64,000 nucleotides of DNA from Aureimonas phyllosphaerae (GTDB taxonomy: Bacteria > Pseudomonadota > Alphaproteobacteria > Rhizobiales > Rhizobiaceae): positions 62,001 through 126,000 of the forward strand of contig NZ_FOOA01000002.1 of assembly GCF_900113065.1 (NCBI RefSeq). The letters are read 5' to 3'. Position 1 is the stretch's first letter. Every line of letters starts with the position of its first letter. The translations under genes were made by a program, and so were the position numbers. Positions 9,929-63,665 of the stretch are shown piece by piece. The notes beneath the pieces are model-generated. The model was not told the DNA's origin, made no database searches, and saw only the letters and a list, made by a program, of their open reading frames with translations.

Positions 9929-10623
9929 GCGACCCTGCGAGGCGGGTTCGGCCGAAGGACGCGGCCTCGCTTCTCGTCTACGATAGCGTAAAGGGCGAAA
10001 TCCGCTTCCTGATGGGGGTCCGGGCGGCCAGTCATCTCTTCATGCCGGGCCATCTCGTGTTCCCCGGTGGCCGACTGGAAGCGTCTGACATGGCTCTGGC
10101 GCGGCATCTTGCGGTCGACGCGGCTGTCGCCACCCGATTGATGGCTGGAAGCCCGAAACCGCGCATAACATGTCACGCCGCGGCCCTCGCGCTCGCCGCG
10201 ATCCGCGAGACGCAGGAGGAGACCGGCCTTCTCGTTGCAGAGTTGGGCCGGCCCCTCGCCATGCCGGCCGGCTGGGAGCCCTTCGCGGCGGCCGGTGCCG
10301 TTCCGACGCCTCGCGCCCTGATGCCGCTGGCGCGGGCGATTACGCCGCCCGGCCTTCCTCGTCGGTTCGACGCGCGCTTCTTCCTCGTGTCAGCGGACCG
10401 TCTCCTCGACCGACGATTACCTGCCCGGCCACCCACCGACGAATTCGACACCGTCATATGGGTGGGACCGGAACAGCTTAAGAACTTCCGCGTCGCCGAG
10501 ATAACGGCACGGGTTCTGGACGCCGCCTTTCGGCGGCTCGAAGCTGGCACGCAGGACGATCCATGGGCTCCGATCCCCTTCTTCCGGCGGCGTCGGGGCG
10601 AGCACACCGTCGAGTACCTATGA
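9925..10623 (+). CDS. Nudix hydrolase with an interrupted Nudix box
   Basis: A 232-residue protein. The start is TTG 9925, overlapping the DUF983 stop by 4 bp (TTGA); this is the only start that fits between the genes. The Nudix signature is split. PGGRLEASD at about residues 47-55 is followed by a ~30-residue insert and then AAIRETQEETGL at about 90-101, which carries the catalytic REXXEE. This arrangement resembles the NUDT19/CoA-pyrophosphatase-like group rather than MutT. The substrate cannot be read from sequence. The stop overlaps the next ATG by 4 bp. Confidence 0.85.
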   Translation: MSDPARRVRPKDAASLLVYDSVKGEIRFLMGVRAASHLFMPGHLVFPGGRLEASDMALARHLAVDAAVATRLMAGSPKPRITCHAAALALAAIRETQEETGLLVAELGRPLAMPAGWEPFAAAGAVPTPRALMPLARAITPPGLPRRFDARFFLVSADRLLDRRLPARPPTDEFDTVIWVGPEQLKNFRVAEITARVLDAAFRRLEAGTQDDPWAPIPFFRRRRGEHTVEYL

Positions 10624-14021: not shown

Positions 14022-17000
14022 TCAGACGAGTTCGACGTCGACGACACCCGGTGCCGCCTTGATCGCACTGGCGATCTGCGGCGAGACGCGAAAGCGACCC
14101 GGCAGGTCGATCTCGACCTCGCGCTCGCCGTCGTTGCGCAGGAGGATCAGCGAGACTTCGCTGTCGCCTCCCGGCCGAAGCTGACTGCGCACCGACTGCA
14201 ACGGCTTGGCGTCCCGCAGGAAGACGCGCAGTGCCTTCTGCATCTTCTCCGCCTCGCCTTCCAGCGACTGAACCCCGGAGGCCCGAAGCGAAATTCCTTC
14301 TGGTCGATCTTCGGCCGACACAGTGACGATCACCGACGCGCCCGGCTCCAGCATGTCGCGGAAGTTGATCAGCGTCTCGGTGAACAGGACGACCTCGTAC
14401 TGGCCTGAAGCATCGGAGAGCTGGACGATGCCGATCTTGCCGCCCGACTTCGTCTTGCGCTCCTGACGCGAGGTGACGGTTCCAGCGAGGCGTCCGGCCG
14501 TCTGGCCACGCCGCACCCCCGCGACGACCTCGGCATAGGACTGGACCTTCAGGCGCTTGAGGGCAGCCTTGTACTCGTCCAGCGGATGCGCCGACAGATA
14601 GAAGCCGATCGCCTGGAATTCCTTCAGCAGTCGCTCGGCACTGGTCCAGCCCTGCACGTCTGTGAGGCGCAGCGGTTCCGGTCCGGCATTGGCACCGCCG
14701 AACATGTCGTGCTGGCCCGACGTGCGTCCCGACTGGGCCATGGCCGCATAGCCTGCCAGACGGTCGAGGTTGCCGCACAGCTTCGCCCGATCATGACCGA
14801 AGCAGTCGAGCGCGCCGGCGCAGATCAGGTGTTCCAGCGTGCGCTTGTTGACGATCTTCGGATCGATCCGGGCGCAGAAGTCTTCGAGGCTCTCGAACCG
14901 GCCGCCCTCCTGCCGCCGCTCGACGATGTGCTCGACCGCCTGCTCGCCGACGCCCTTGATCGCCGCCAGCGCGTAGATGATCTTGCCGTCCTCCACCTCG
15001 AACGGCTTGAACGAGGTCTGGACGGATGGCGGTACGACCTCGATGCCGAGCCGCTTGGCATCGAGGCGGAAATCGTTGAGCTTGTCGGTGTTGCCCATAT
15101 CCAGCGTCATCGACCCGGCGAGGAACTCGACCGGATGATTCGCCTTGAGATAGGCCGTCTGGTAGGAAACCAGCGCGTAGGCTGCTGCGTGGCTCTTGTT
15201 GAAGCCATAGTCCGCAAACTTGGCCAGGAGGTCGAAGATCGTGTTCGCCTGCGCCTTCTTGATGCCGCCCTTCTCGCAGCCTTCCACGAAGCGAACGCGC
15301 TGGACGTCCATCTCGGCGCGAATCTTCTTGCCCATGGCGCGGCGCAGGAGGTCGGCTTCGCCGAGCGTGTAGCCCGAGAGGACCTGGGCGATCTGCATCA
15401 CCTGTTCCTGGTAGACGATCACCCCTTGGGTCTCGCGCAGGATGGGCTCGATCATCTCATGGATGATCTCGACCTCTTCCTCGCCGTGCTTGCGCGCGTT
15501 GTAGACCGGAATGTTCTCCATCGGCCCCGGACGGTACAGCGCGACGAGGGCGATGATGTCCTCGAAGCAGTCCGGTCGCATGCCGATCAGCGCCTTGCGC
15601 ATGCCGATCGATTCCACCTGGAACACGCCCACGGTCTCGCCGCGCGTCAGGAGCTGGTAGGTCGGCGCGTCGTCGAGCGGCAGGGCGCCGAGGTCGATCT
15701 GAACCCCGCGGCGGGCGATCAGATCTACGGCGGTCTTGAGGGTCGTCAGTGTCTTTAAGCCGAGGAAGTCGAATTTCACGAGGCCGGCTTGCTCGACCCA
15801 CTTCATGTTGAACTGGGTGACGGGCATGTCCGATCGGGGATCGCGATACATCGGCACGAGCTTCGACAACGGCCGATCACCGATCACGATGCCGGCCGCG
15901 TGGGTCGAGGCGTGACGATAGAGCCCCTCCAGCTTCAACGAGATCGTCAGCAGGCGGTCGACGACCTCTTCCGCCTTGCGCGCCTCCTGAAGCCGCGGTT
16001 CGTCCTCCAGCGCCTGCGCCAGCGTCACCGGGTTGGCCGGGTTCTGCGGGACGAGCTTGCAGAGCTTGTCGACGTGGCCGTAGCTCATCTCGAGCACGCG
16101 GCCGACATCGCGCAGCACGGCGCGGGCCTGCATCGAACCGAACGTGATGATCTGAGCGACCTGCTGGCGGCCGTACTTTTCCTGGACGTAACGGATCACC
16201 TCTTCGCGCCGGTCCTGGCAGAAGTCGATGTCGAAGTCAGGCATCGACACGCGGTCGGGGTTCAGGAAGCGCTCGAACAGGAGCGCGAAGCGCAGAGGGT
16301 CGAGATCGGTGATCGTCAGCGAATAGGCGACCAGCGAGCCGGCGCCGGAGCCGCGGCCCGGGCCGACGGGAATGCCATTGGCCTTCGCCCACTTGATGAA
16401 GTCCGACACGATCAGGAAGTAGCCCGGGAACTTCATCCGCTCGATGACGGACAGTTCGAACTCGAGCCGCTCGCGGTAAATTTCGACGGTCTGTCCCGGA
16501 GCCGGCCCGTGAAAGGCAAGCCGCGCTTCCAGACCGGCCTCTGCCTGCCGGCGCAACTCGGCGGCCTCCGCCCGTTCCGCCTCCGCAGCGTCGGCATCCG
16601 CACCGGCAAAGCGCGGCAGGATCGGCTTGCGCGTGCGCACGCGATAGGAGCAACGGCGCGCGATCTCGATCGTGTTTTCCAAAGCCTCCGGCAGATCGGC
16701 GAAGAGCTCCGCCATCTTGTCCTGGCTTTTCAAACAGTGATCGTTCGTCAGCCGACGACGGTCCTCGTGGCTGACGAGCCTGTTCGACGCCACCGCGATC
16801 AGCGCATCGTGGGCGTCGAAGTCCTCGTCGCAGAAGAAGAACGGCTCGTTGGTGGCCACCAGTGGCAGGCCGAAGTCATAGGCGAGAGCCACCGTCTCCG
16901 GTTCGGTCCGCCGCTCGCGCCCACCGTGGCGCTGAAGCTCGACATAGAGCCGGTCGCCGTAGAGGGCAGCAAGCCTCTCCAGACGGGCGCGTGCCAGACC

Positions 17001-17621
17001 ACCCTGCCCGGCCGCGATCGCCGTGCCGATCGGTCCCAGCGGACCGCCGGTGAGGACGATCAGCCCCTCTGTGCGACCTTCCAGCCAAGCGACCGGGACG
17101 TGCGGTCGAACGTTACCGTCGTGCGCGAGGTAGGACAGGGAAACGATCTCGACAAGATTCTCGTAACCCTGCTCGGTCGCGGCGATGAAGGCGACCGGGG
17201 CCGCAGGACCGAAGCCGGAGCGGTCACGCGGATTGATCTCGGCGTCACCAAAATCGACCTCGAGCTGGCAACCGATGATCGGCTGCACGCCGGACTTCGC
17301 CGCCTTCTCCGAAAACTCGAGCGCCCCGAAGAGGTTGTTGGTGTCGGCAATGCCGATCGCCGGCGCGCCATCACCCTTGGCGAACTTGACGATCTGGTCG
17401 ATCCGCAGCGCGCCTTCCAGAAGGGAGAACGCGCTGTGCACCCGCAGATGAATGAAGCGTGGCGGCGCAATCGGCTCGACAGGGTCGGACACGGCGATCT
17501 CCTCGATCGTCGGCGCGTCGTCATCGAATGACTCGCCGACCGGCCGCAGATAACCGAGATCGTCGTAGAACGACTCAGGGCCGCTTGCGGCGTCAGAAGC
17601 TTCCTCAGTGTTCCAATCCAT
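14022..17621 (-). CDS. dnaE: DNA polymerase III alpha subunit
   Basis: DnaE (up to 1199 aa) is the replicative polymerase. The PHP domain starts at FIHLRVHSAFSLLEGAL (about residues 56-72). The polymerase core has VGPGRGSGAGSLVAY and the catalytic PDFDIDFCQDRR (about residues 467-478). A helix-hairpin-helix segment and an OB-fold (about 1010-1080) follow. The start is uncertain. ATG 17621 lacks a ribosome site but the intervening codons look coding. GTG 17492 is preceded by GAGGAG at good spacing and would give a protein beginning close to where rhizobial DnaE does (1156 aa). I give the longer frame. A small ORF under LexA-type boxes lies 109 bp upstream on the same strand. Confidence 0.93.
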   Translation of the reverse strand: MDWNTEEASDAASGPESFYDDLGYLRPVGESFDDDAPTIEEIAVSDPVEPIAPPRFIHLRVHSAFSLLEGALRIDQIVKFAKGDGAPAIGIADTNNLFGALEFSEKAAKSGVQPIIGCQLEVDFGDAEINPRDRSGFGPAAPVAFIAATEQGYENLVEIVSLSYLAHDGNVRPHVPVAWLEGRTEGLIVLTGGPLGPIGTAIAAGQGGLARARLERLAALYGDRLYVELQRHGGRERRTEPETVALAYDFGLPLVATNEPFFFCDEDFDAHDALIAVASNRLVSHEDRRRLTNDHCLKSQDKMAELFADLPEALENTIEIARRCSYRVRTRKPILPRFAGADADAAEAERAEAAELRRQAEAGLEARLAFHGPAPGQTVEIYRERLEFELSVIERMKFPGYFLIVSDFIKWAKANGIPVGPGRGSGAGSLVAYSLTITDLDPLRFALLFERFLNPDRVSMPDFDIDFCQDRREEVIRYVQEKYGRQQVAQIITFGSMQARAVLRDVGRVLEMSYGHVDKLCKLVPQNPANPVTLAQALEDEPRLQEARKAEEVVDRLLTISLKLEGLYRHASTHAAGIVIGDRPLSKLVPMYRDPRSDMPVTQFNMKWVEQAGLVKFDFLGLKTLTTLKTAVDLIARRGVQIDLGALPLDDAPTYQLLTRGETVGVFQVESIGMRKALIGMRPDCFEDIIALVALYRPGPMENIPVYNARKHGEEEVEIIHEMIEPILRETQGVIVYQEQVMQIAQVLSGYTLGEADLLRRAMGKKIRAEMDVQRVRFVEGCEKGGIKKAQANTIFDLLAKFADYGFNKSHAAAYALVSYQTAYLKANHPVEFLAGSMTLDMGNTDKLNDFRLDAKRLGIEVVPPSVQTSFKPFEVEDGKIIYALAAIKGVGEQAVEHIVERRQEGGRFESLEDFCARIDPKIVNKRTLEHLICAGALDCFGHDRAKLCGNLDRLAGYAAMAQSGRTSGQHDMFGGANAGPEPLRLTDVQGWTSAERLLKEFQAIGFYLSAHPLDEYKAALKRLKVQSYAEVVAGVRRGQTAGRLAGTVTSRQERKTKSGGKIGIVQLSDASGQYEVVLFTETLINFRDMLEPGASVIVTVSAEDRPEGISLRASGVQSLEGEAEKMQKALRVFLRDAKPLQSVRSQLRPGGDSEVSLILLRNDGEREVEIDLPGRFRVSPQIASAIKAAPGVVDVELV

Positions 17622-17730
17622 GGGGCAGAGTCCAGCCTGCTATTTCAGGATGCGCCCGCCCCCGAGAGCCCATCCCCAGATAAGATGCAGCTGCCGCGAC
17701 CGCCAGCAGTCGGCGCGGCTTCGGTGTTCG

Positions 17731-17814
17731 TCAGAGGATATGGACGATGAGAGCGAAGCTCGCAAAGAAGAGGCAGAGAGCGGTCAGCGAAGCGAGTTCC
17801 TTCAGGATCAGCAT
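17731..17814 (-). CDS. 27-residue single-span membrane protein, candidate SOS-controlled peptide
   Basis: ATG at 17814 is preceded by AAAGGGG with a 6-nt spacer, followed by 27 sense codons and TGA. The peptide begins MLILKELASL and is then almost wholly hydrophobic to its C-terminus (about residues 7-27 form one membrane helix; the only late polar residue is a His near the end). Two GTTC-N7-GTTC boxes lie immediately upstream, the nearer one overlapping the ribosome site. Size, topology and LexA-type control recall the SOS-induced division inhibitor SidA of Caulobacter (29 aa), but I claim no sequence homology. It lies upstream of and co-directional with dnaE. Coding status is inferred from the ribosome site, the frame and the control region. 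Confidence 0.6.
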   Translation of the reverse strand: MLILKELASLTALCLFFASFALIVHIL

Positions 17815-17817
17815 GTC

Positions 17818-17851
17818 GTTCCCCTTTCGTTCCTATGTTCCTTTTTTGTTC
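17818..17851. promoter_or_regulatory. Two tandem LexA-type SOS boxes
   Basis: Box 1 (17818-17832) is GTTC-CCCTTTC-GTTC. Box 2 (17837-17851) is GTTC-CTTTTTT-GTTC. On the minus strand both read GAAC-N7-GAAC, the LexA operator described for rhizobia and other alphaproteobacteria. Their centres are 19 bp apart. They lie 4-37 bp upstream of the 27-codon ORF, box 1 covering its ribosome site. No convincing -35/-10 pair could be fixed; TTGATC at 17866-17871 (minus strand) is one possible -35. Confidence 0.7.
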
Positions 17852-18333
17852 CATCTTTGGGTGAAGATCAAGAGGCCGCAACGCGGATAGTGAATCAATC
17901 CTTGATTCGGTCGTGCTACTGCCATTTCGAGAGGGTTGCTGGGAACTCGGACAGCGATCGGGCAGGTCGTCCGCCACGCCGGTAGACAGGCGATGAGTTG
18001 GGAAACGAAAATGCTCCCTCGGGGACAGCCATCACCCGGTCAACGGTCGTCCCAGGCCAAACGAACAGAGCAATGCGTCCGCGGCGCTCGAGTCGCGGCG
18101 GGAAAGCCGGTTCTATCGATGGGCGAGAACGACGCTGAAGCGTCGCGCTTTGACCTCGTCACTCAACGATGAGCACACGGACATTCGGAGACCGGCAGAG
18201 CCATAGAGACCTTCTCGCGTCCCGAGGTATTGACGGATAGGTCTTCCGGTAACCGTGCGCGTCCCCATGGGTTCGCGGTCGCCCACTGGCCGCTTCGAAC
18301 CATCCAGCCCGGACGAGCTAACCAGATCGCTGC
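17852..18333. other. Non-coding gap between small ORF control region and lolD
   Basis: About 480 bp downstream of lolD and upstream of the small ORF. It contains the palindrome at 17892-17908 and a short hairpin GACGC-TGAA-GCGTC near 18129. An open frame at 17936-18172 (+) has no ribosome site or family resemblance and is not called. I see no clear terminator for lolD. Confidence 0.5.
17892..17908. repeat. Perfect inverted repeat, possible operator
   Basis: GAATCAA-TCC-TTGATTC is a 7-bp perfect inverted repeat with a 3-bp centre, about 78 bp upstream of the small ORF start. AT-rich and symmetric, it looks like a dimeric repressor site rather than a terminator, since no T-run follows on either strand. 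No regulator can be assigned. Confidence 0.4.
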
Positions 18334-19022
<689 letters not shown>

Positions 19023-19026
<4 letters not shown>

Positions 19027-22043: not shown

Positions 22044-22057
22044 GGGCGCCGTTCGGC

Positions 22058-22324
22058 TCAGGTTCCTGGGACGATGTGCGGGAACGATCCTGGTCCGATG
22101 CCCAAAACTTCCGTCACGAGATAGAACAGCGCGAACACCGCAGTCGCTAGCAGAGTATTGTGGAATGCGACCCGCGCCACGCTGAACCGCGCGGGGGCGC
22201 TGTGCGTGGTGCCGAGCACCACTTCGCCTTCGTCCGCCTGCGAGCGCATGCGGATCGGAAGGACGATGAAAAGCACGGTCCACCAGATCACGAAGTAGAT
22301 GGCGACCGAGGTCAGGATCCCCAT
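22058..22324 (-). CDS. DUF1467 membrane protein
   Basis: An 88-residue protein with two membrane helices (about residues 4-24 and 55-75) joined by a loop containing the family hallmark LPIRMRSQADEGEVV. DUF1467 proteins are found next to proS and rnj in many Hyphomicrobiales; their function is unknown. A strong terminator follows directly. Confidence 0.88.
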   Translation of the reverse strand: MGILTSVAIYFVIWWTVLFIVLPIRMRSQADEGEVVLGTTHSAPARFSVARVAFHNTLLATAVFALFYLVTEVLGIGPGSFPHIVPGT

Positions 22325-62657: not shown

Positions 62658-63665
62658 ATGAAGCATCTCTTGGCATCGACCGTTCTTGCGCTGGCGTTCA
62701 GTTCGGTGGGCACCCTCGCCGCTCACGCCGCGGGTGACTGCAGCGAGGTCACCGTGGCTGCGATGAACTGGCAGAGCGCCGAAGTGCTCGCCAGCCTCGA
62801 CAAAATCATCCTGGAAAATGGCTACGGCTGCGAAGTCTCGATCATTTCGGGGGATACCGTGCCGACCCTGACGTCGATGGCCGAGCGAGGTCAGCCGGAT
62901 ATCGCCCCGGAAGGCTGGGTCGATCTTGTGCCCGAGGTCATCAACCGCGGTCTGGCCGAGAAGAAGCTCGTCGCCACCGGTCACGCCCTGTCCGACGGCG
63001 CGCAGCAAGGGTGGTTCATCCCGAAATACGTCGCGGACGCCCATCCCGACATCAAGACCATCGGCGATGCGCTGAAGCACCCGGAACTCTTCCCGAACCC
63101 GGAGGACTCCAGCAAGGGTGCCGTCTTCAACGGACCGCAGGGATGGGGCGGCACGGTCGTCACCGCGCAGTTCTTCAAGGCTTACGATGCCGCCAACAAG
63201 GGCTTCACGCTGGTCGACACCGGCTCGTCCGCCGGTCTCGACGGATCGATCGCCCGCGCCAACGAGAACAAGCAGGGCTGGCTCGGCTATTACTGGGCCC
63301 CGACTGCGATCCTGGGACGCTATCCGATGGTTCGCCTCGGCTTCGATGCCCCGCACGATGCCGCGGAATGGAAGCGCTGCAACTCCAACGCCGACTGCCC
63401 CGATCCGAAGCTCAATGAATGGGTGGCCGACAACGTCGATACGGTAGTGACCGCCAAGTTTGCCGAGCGCGCGGGCGAGCCGGTGATGACGTATCTCGGC
63501 AAGCGGTCGTGGTCGAACGCGACGGTCAACGAGCTGCTGGCATGGATGACGGACAACCAGGCCAACGGCGACGATGGCGCGAAGCACTTCCTCGAGACCA
63601 AGAAGGACGTCTGGACGAAGTGGGTCACGCCGGAAGCGGCTTCCAAGATCGAGGCGGCTCTCTGA
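62658..63665 (+). CDS. Glycine betaine/choline-type ABC transporter substrate-binding protein
   Basis: A 335-residue periplasmic OpuAC/ProX-family protein. A signal peptide ends near AHAAGDCSE (cleavage about residue 25). Several tryptophans placed as in betaine-binding aromatic cages are seen: AAMNWQSAE, APEGWVDL, NGPQGWGGT and GYYWAPTAIL. ATG 62658 follows AGGAG. The long upstream leader carries operator-like repeats. Substrate may be glycine betaine, choline or a relative; sequence alone does not decide. Confidence 0.9.
   Translation: MKHLLASTVLALAFSSVGTLAAHAAGDCSEVTVAAMNWQSAEVLASLDKIILENGYGCEVSIISGDTVPTLTSMAERGQPDIAPEGWVDLVPEVINRGLAEKKLVATGHALSDGAQQGWFIPKYVADAHPDIKTIGDALKHPELFPNPEDSSKGAVFNGPQGWGGTVVTAQFFKAYDAANKGFTLVDTGSSAGLDGSIARANENKQGWLGYYWAPTAILGRYPMVRLGFDAPHDAAEWKRCNSNADCPDPKLNEWVADNVDTVVTAKFAERAGEPVMTYLGKRSWSNATVNELLAWMTDNQANGDDGAKHFLETKKDVWTKWVTPEAASKIEAAL

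Follow-up and report, generated by a model that had tools for sequence, protein, structure and literature searches.

A short membrane-peptide gene and its operator before dnaE

The window analysed here (the whole stretch of 64,000 nucleotides from Aureimonas phyllosphaerae) carries a short open reading frame (ORF) between a lolD-like gene and dnaE. The features of the locus are as follows.

14022-17621, minus strand: dnaE, replicative DNA polymerase III alpha subunit (NCBIfam NF004226, 1490.3 bits against a cut-off of 1002; also Pfam)
17622-17730, minus strand: gap of 109 bp from the peptide stop to the dnaE start, with a terminator-like site at chance level only
17731-17814 including the stop codon, minus strand: ORF of a probable SidA-type membrane peptide (from the ORF, its relatives, codon comparison and the SidA profile)
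17818-17832, minus strand: LexA-type box 2, GAACGAAAGGGGAAC, over the ribosome site; retained by the nearest relatives and missing in others that retain box 1
17837-17851, minus strand: LexA-type box 1, GAACAAAAAAGGAAC, which probably overlaps the core promoter; a perfect box is present in most of the family loci examined
17866-17871, minus strand: probable -35 element TTGATC, read from the sequence
18334-19026, minus strand: lolD-like ABC ATPase gene, the upstream neighbour (best NCBIfam match TIGR02211 LolD, 255 bits, below the cut-off of 307.75)

The ORF starts with ATG, encodes the 27-residue peptide MLILKELASLTALCLFFASFALIVHIL and ends with TGA; its ribosome site is AAAGGGGA, and about 520 bp separate it from the lolD-like gene. 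With a 17-residue Kyte-Doolittle maximum of 2.35, the peptide falls within the form of SidA, a short single hydrophobic helix of about 26 to 35 residues. It gave no match in Pfam, NCBIfam or PHROGs, and the one Pfam match obtained (E value of 0.25, below the cut-off) was to a relative. The starts of the two boxes are 19 bp apart, and the nearer box starts 18 nt 5' of the ATG. The sequence-only reading had described a one-helix ORF with a ribosome site behind two perfect GAAC-N7-GAAC boxes, the nearer over the ribosome site, with dnaE in the same direction 109 bp further on; this layout was confirmed by the ORF coordinates, the box scan and the dnaE start at 17621. The terminator-like site in the gap (17703-17687) was the only one in 901 bp scanned, against a mean of 0.7 in shuffles, and read-through from the peptide gene into dnaE is possible.

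The box pattern was seen five times in the window against 1.95 expected (sd 1.42), and 4 of 100 shuffles also reached five, so that one box alone means little. The three further perfect boxes in the window, at 10471-10485, 22051-22065 and 63084-63098, may be due to chance. In the whole genome the pattern occurred at 156 places, compared with 49 for the reversed pattern. The genome has one LexA (PF01726, contig C26), and a box, GAACACAAACAGAAC, starts 54 nt 5' of the lexA start codon; uvrA is preceded by the box GAACAAAATGGGAAC, and a parE-like gene lies at GAACACTTGCAGAAC. These three were the clear SOS-type genes among 14 box stretches picked from the first 100 of the 156 places, several of the other boxes lying inside open frames. 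The earlier proposal that the boxes before the peptide form a LexA-type operator is thus supported at the sequence level by the same box at the genome's own lexA and uvrA. Elsewhere in the genome, on a 32-kb contig (L361, G000:C24:5200-7400), two overlapping boxes with one half-site in common precede by about 97 nt an ORF whose sequence, by reading, resembles conjugative relaxases (TrwC/MobF kind), and transfer there may perhaps be SOS controlled. The plasmid relatives nearest to the error-prone polymerase of the window genome, among the 25 best of 2028 records, came from Ancylobacter, Chelativorans, Nitratireductor, Sinorhizobium, Rhizobium and kin, which agrees with a placement in Hyphomicrobiales.

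TTGATC starts 20 nt before box 1, and box 1 would therefore cover the -10 region. Among the 84 family loci (83 distinct) that have a box with at most one mismatch, 67 carry TTGA[CT] in the 30 nt preceding the box, compared with 62 of 1680 random stretches taken from these loci, and its offsets relative to the box cluster near -9 and -20. At the peptide locus itself, no minus-strand promoter was called by a generic sigma-70 scan. Tandem operators in which three GAAC half-sites at 11-bp steps make up two overlapping boxes with a common middle half-site were observed at L026, L028-L030, L374, L384, L392, L400, L402 and similar loci of the family.

Conservation in the genus, the family and beyond

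The boxes and the ORF stand above chance because they are conserved across near relatives. Among six of these (window included), the box stretch had 35 identical positions out of 40 and the coding sequence 59 out of 81. Identity was lower in the flanks, with 2 of 26 positions immediately behind the stop and, farther out on the 5' side, 4 of 50 and 12 of 50. pN/pS was 0.00 to 0.54 in 14 chosen pairs and 0.07 to 0.37 between the window species and six others; values of 0.35 (L003/L004), 0.42 (L010/L011) and 0.54 (L005/L006) are based on 4 to 10 differences. The peptide ORF is a real conserved gene whose amino acids are under purifying selection, the codon changes being mostly synonymous.

A search of the 101 genomes nearest the window (itself included) matched the peptide in 23 at an E value of ≤1, among them 20 of the 21 of the genus. 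The last genus genome (G007) was found by profile, and its locus, L373, has both a box and dnaE, bringing the genus to 21 of 21. The nearest-genome search yielded 24 loci, among which 22 have a perfect box, one (L018) has a box with a mismatch and one (L024) has none. L024, a second match in its genome (G018, E value of 0.64) with neither box nor dnaE, was rejected.

The search was extended with profile A1, built from 18 peptides (15 from the window's genus and 3 from other genera), which matched 315 of 394 family genomes at an E value of ≤1, chance matches included; the first 100 rows, one genome each, all had E values of ≤2.5e-6. The regions around the matches of the nearest-genome search and of A1 gave 48 first loci (44 distinct places), 47 of which have a box with at most one mismatch and, as identified by tblastn, dnaE downstream on the same strand; the box is perfect in 42. 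In 40 further loci from lower A1 rows, dnaE was downstream in every case, the box was perfect in 37, and all 40 have a box with at most one mismatch. Conservation in related genomes, on which the sequence-only reading had made its proposal depend, was therefore borne out across the genus and, with box and dnaE together, in 83 of 84 distinct peptide-centred loci of the family. Its description of an unannotated membrane protein likewise agrees with the conserved frame, the mostly synonymous changes and the lack of a Pfam, NCBIfam or PHROGs match. In three genomes of one genus of the family (g114; loci L051, L058 and L059), neither a perfect box nor a candidate peptide was seen in the 700 to 800 nt before dnaE, and the peptide gene may possibly have been lost or have moved there.

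For a test independent of the peptide sequence, dnaE was located and the 600 nt before it were examined in each locus for a box 10 to 110 nt before the start of an ORF of 22 to 50 residues with a hydrophobic stretch. The numbers of loci with this arrangement and a perfect box were 47 of 90 (order), 15 of 89 (class), 21 of 23 (the family labelled f85) and 9 of 22 (Caulobacteraceae); in dinucleotide shuffles it was found in 0 of 900, 0 of 890 (0 of 1790 for order and class together), 0 of 230 and 0 of 220, respectively. With one mismatch allowed, the counts were 51 of 90, 15 of 89, 21 of 23 and 20 of 22, against 5 of 900, 3 of 890, 1 of 230 and 0 of 220 in shuffles. The perfect-box rule did not find the arrangement before dnaE in 43 of 90 order loci and 74 of 89 class loci. 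The order sample comprised 90 of the 147 order genomes in which dnaE was located, chosen mainly among the top DnaE matches, and the class sample 89 of 138 class genomes, larger genomes first, so that these fractions describe the samples and should not be extended to the groups at large. The class set includes two f85 genomes, and the order set a few genomes of the window's family. The 15 positive class loci are spread over 11 family labels outside the window's order. The linkage of the peptide to dnaE is thus conserved far beyond the window genome.

The f85 group (two of its loci being too short) had been considered as possible Caulobacteraceae, but with 25 genomes in two genera this assignment was dropped. 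Its loci (L231-L255) hold a distinct branch of peptides, mostly of 35 residues, with a K-x-x-F-E...F-W core.

Relationship to Caulobacter SidA

In Caulobacter crescentus, sidA is CCNA_02004 (PMC10769358) and encodes 29 residues (PMC4211646), dnaE is CC1926 (PMC1839093), and CCNA_02005 is a nucleoside hydrolase (PMC3667746). In Caulobacter vibrioides DSM 9893, we found a 29-residue ORF directly before dnaE, preceded by GAACATCTTGTGAAC and GAACAAAACCGGAAT, and further up a divergent gene which, read on the reverse strand, starts like a nucleoside hydrolase. The ORF matched NCBIfam NF033228 ('cell division inhibitor SidA') with 72.4 bits against a cut-off of 35, and the locus before dnaE is therefore the sidA locus. 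dnaE was recovered in all 22 Caulobacteraceae genomes.

The window peptide resembles SidA in length, in its one hydrophobic helix with a basic-acidic N-terminal turn, in having putative LexA-type boxes just 5' of the gene and in its position directly before dnaE. The boxes differ in detail: those in front of the window peptide are both perfect, and one of them covers the ribosome site, but in C. vibrioides DSM 9893 a single perfect box is accompanied by two ending in GAAT and GAAA. The peptide also differs from SidA in lacking the WMMC stretch of the C-terminal half and in falling below the curated NF033228 cut-off of 35 bits, with no match at E values up to 10. At an E value of ≤10, this model matched 13 of 14 Caulobacteraceae peptides (A2), 0 of 18 of A1 and, with an E value of 0.067, 1 of 25 in set A3, which combines 21 peptides of other families in the order with 4 of the window's family; none of 199 genomes of the window's family exceeded the cut-off of the model. 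The only sub-threshold match in the family (G054, L411) was discarded because it lacked both a nearby box and a DnaE match.

Profile-profile alignment (hhalign) of the SidA set with the window set gave a probability of 89 and a score of 24.7 over 17 columns, and none of 217 column-permuted controls scored as high (best 14.6). The SidA set aligned with the order set (without the window's family) over 21 columns with a score of 21.7, reached by 1 of 281 controls, and the window set with the order set with a score of 28.8, reached by 0 of 300. A SidA HMM built from Caulobacteraceae was also run on 18,148 ORFs, taken from the entire window and from the other loci; this database was enriched in family loci, and its 17,940 unlabelled ORFs served as controls. 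Rank 1 went to an ORF in L204 that closely resembles SidA (54 bits) and has boxes upstream, ranks 2 to 32 were all dnaE-linked box ORFs, and the first unrelated ORF was at rank 33. The best of ranks 2 to 32 were L019 and L020, from the window's own genus (E value of 5.1e-4), while most of the top E values are weak singly (0.01 to 1). The window's own peptide came at rank 687 (0.5 bits, E value of 490), and its link to the SidA HMM passes through the same-genus orthologues. The core common to SidA and the window-type peptides, R/K-D/E-x-x-A/S-L/F-x-x-V/I/L-x-x-F, lies in the N-terminal half.

Since position, operator and, for its group, sequence profile agree, the window peptide is most likely a divergent SidA homologue at the same locus before dnaE; because it falls below the NF033228 equivalog cut-off, it is classed as a homologue and not as a member of the equivalog. 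The sequence-only reading had pointed to SidA, and in this it was upheld. Its suggestion of a merely analogous, undescribed peptide was not, as the kind is known (SidA), although the window's branch is unannotated.

A candidate SOS division brake and its alternatives

SidA is SOS induced, interacts with FtsW and has been proposed to keep FtsW/FtsI/FtsN inactive (PMC4211646); a 2026 paper predicts, without high confidence, that it lies on TM7 of FtsW (PMC13396833). The window genome has FtsW (G000:C43:405854-406885), the sole SEDS protein found at an E value of ≤0.001; the same search found no separate RodA. We propose, with a probability of about 0.75, that the window gene encodes a LexA-repressed, damage-induced division brake of the SidA type, which would work like SidA in holding FtsW/FtsI/FtsN inactive. 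The proposal builds on the gene, its operator sequences, its conservation, the synteny with SidA, the profile similarity and the presence of FtsW; repression, induction, membrane insertion, target binding and the division block are drawn by analogy from SidA and established SOS biology. Translation of the ORF and a co-induction of dnaE, which the sequence-only reading had suggested might come from the same promoter, are likewise predictions.

In undamaged cells, LexA would sit on one or two of the GAAC-N7-GAAC operators over the promoter and the ribosome site and keep the gene off. DNA damage would activate RecA and lead to LexA cleavage, upon which the 27-residue peptide would be made in a burst. 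The peptide would enter the inner membrane as one helix, its N-terminal end including Lys5-Glu6 probably facing the cell interior, as the positive-inside rule predicts, and would keep the septal wall synthase FtsW, with FtsI/FtsN, inactive. Septation would thereby be blocked, and the cells would elongate undivided until repair is complete.

The linkage to dnaE allows a wider and considerably more tentative idea, to which we would give only a minor chance. SidA might be an ancestral alphaproteobacterial SOS division checkpoint and no speciality of Caulobacter, fixed before dnaE as one unit, such that a LexA-controlled transcript would stop septation and top up DnaE, holding division exactly during replication restart. 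The main text of a Caulobacter SOS paper does not mention dnaE (PMC12700426).

Among the alternatives to the SidA-type brake, we consider it unlikely that the peptide is an SOS-induced membrane toxin of the TisB kind, which would cause dormancy after damage through pores or loss of the proton gradient, with no specific division block. Such a toxin would share with the window peptide its small size, its hydrophobicity and its place behind a LexA-type operator. TisB of Escherichia coli, likewise a short SOS-induced membrane peptide, has about 29 residues. It is induced upon LexA degradation and depolarises the membrane (PMC8145889). The window peptide, however, has homology and a common locus with SidA and, having only K5, E6 and H25 as charged or ionisable residues, appears by reading to present no marked polar helix face. 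TisB differs further in its control by an antisense RNA, in the toxin-antitoxin pair tisB/istR-1.

It seems to us quite improbable that the ORF serves to control dnaE through its translation or its promoter, as a leader peptide or an upstream ORF would, and that its product has no function in itself. The chance-level terminator-like site in the gap and the presence of same-strand dnaE downstream of nearly every family locus (47 of the 48 first loci and all 40 further ones) would fit such a role. Against it stand the purifying selection on the amino acids, the trans-acting inhibition by the Caulobacter peptide (PMC4211646) and a variable spacing, with 84 to 903 nt between the stop and the last in-frame start that precedes the DnaE match. 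Least probable of all is a SidA-descended SOS peptide with a shifted target, for example a different component of the division or elongation machinery; the C-terminal half unlike SidA and the single SEDS protein of the genome might speak for it, and the core common with SidA in the N-terminal half speaks against it.

The SidA-type brake can also be compared, by description, with other small membrane proteins made after damage. YneA of Bacillus, SosA of Staphylococcus and ChiZ of Mycobacterium are larger than the window peptide. They resemble it in being damage-induced small membrane proteins, which act late in division, but YneA and ChiZ carry a LysM domain (PMC13396833), whereas the 27 residues of the window peptide have no Pfam match. 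DidA of Caulobacter is also a small membrane division inhibitor made after damage but has 71 residues, is independent of SOS and is induced by DriD (PMC4211646). The accessible literature that was searched, with most subscription papers outside it, contained no description of SidA outside Caulobacter and named no SOS division inhibitor for alphaproteobacteria outside Caulobacter and its kin.

These data raise the question of why the peptide gene stays beside dnaE. They also place SidA, an apparent 29-residue orphan, in an old and fast-changing family which annotation has missed, and, for much of the window's family, they provide a concrete, testable candidate for a DNA-damage division brake.
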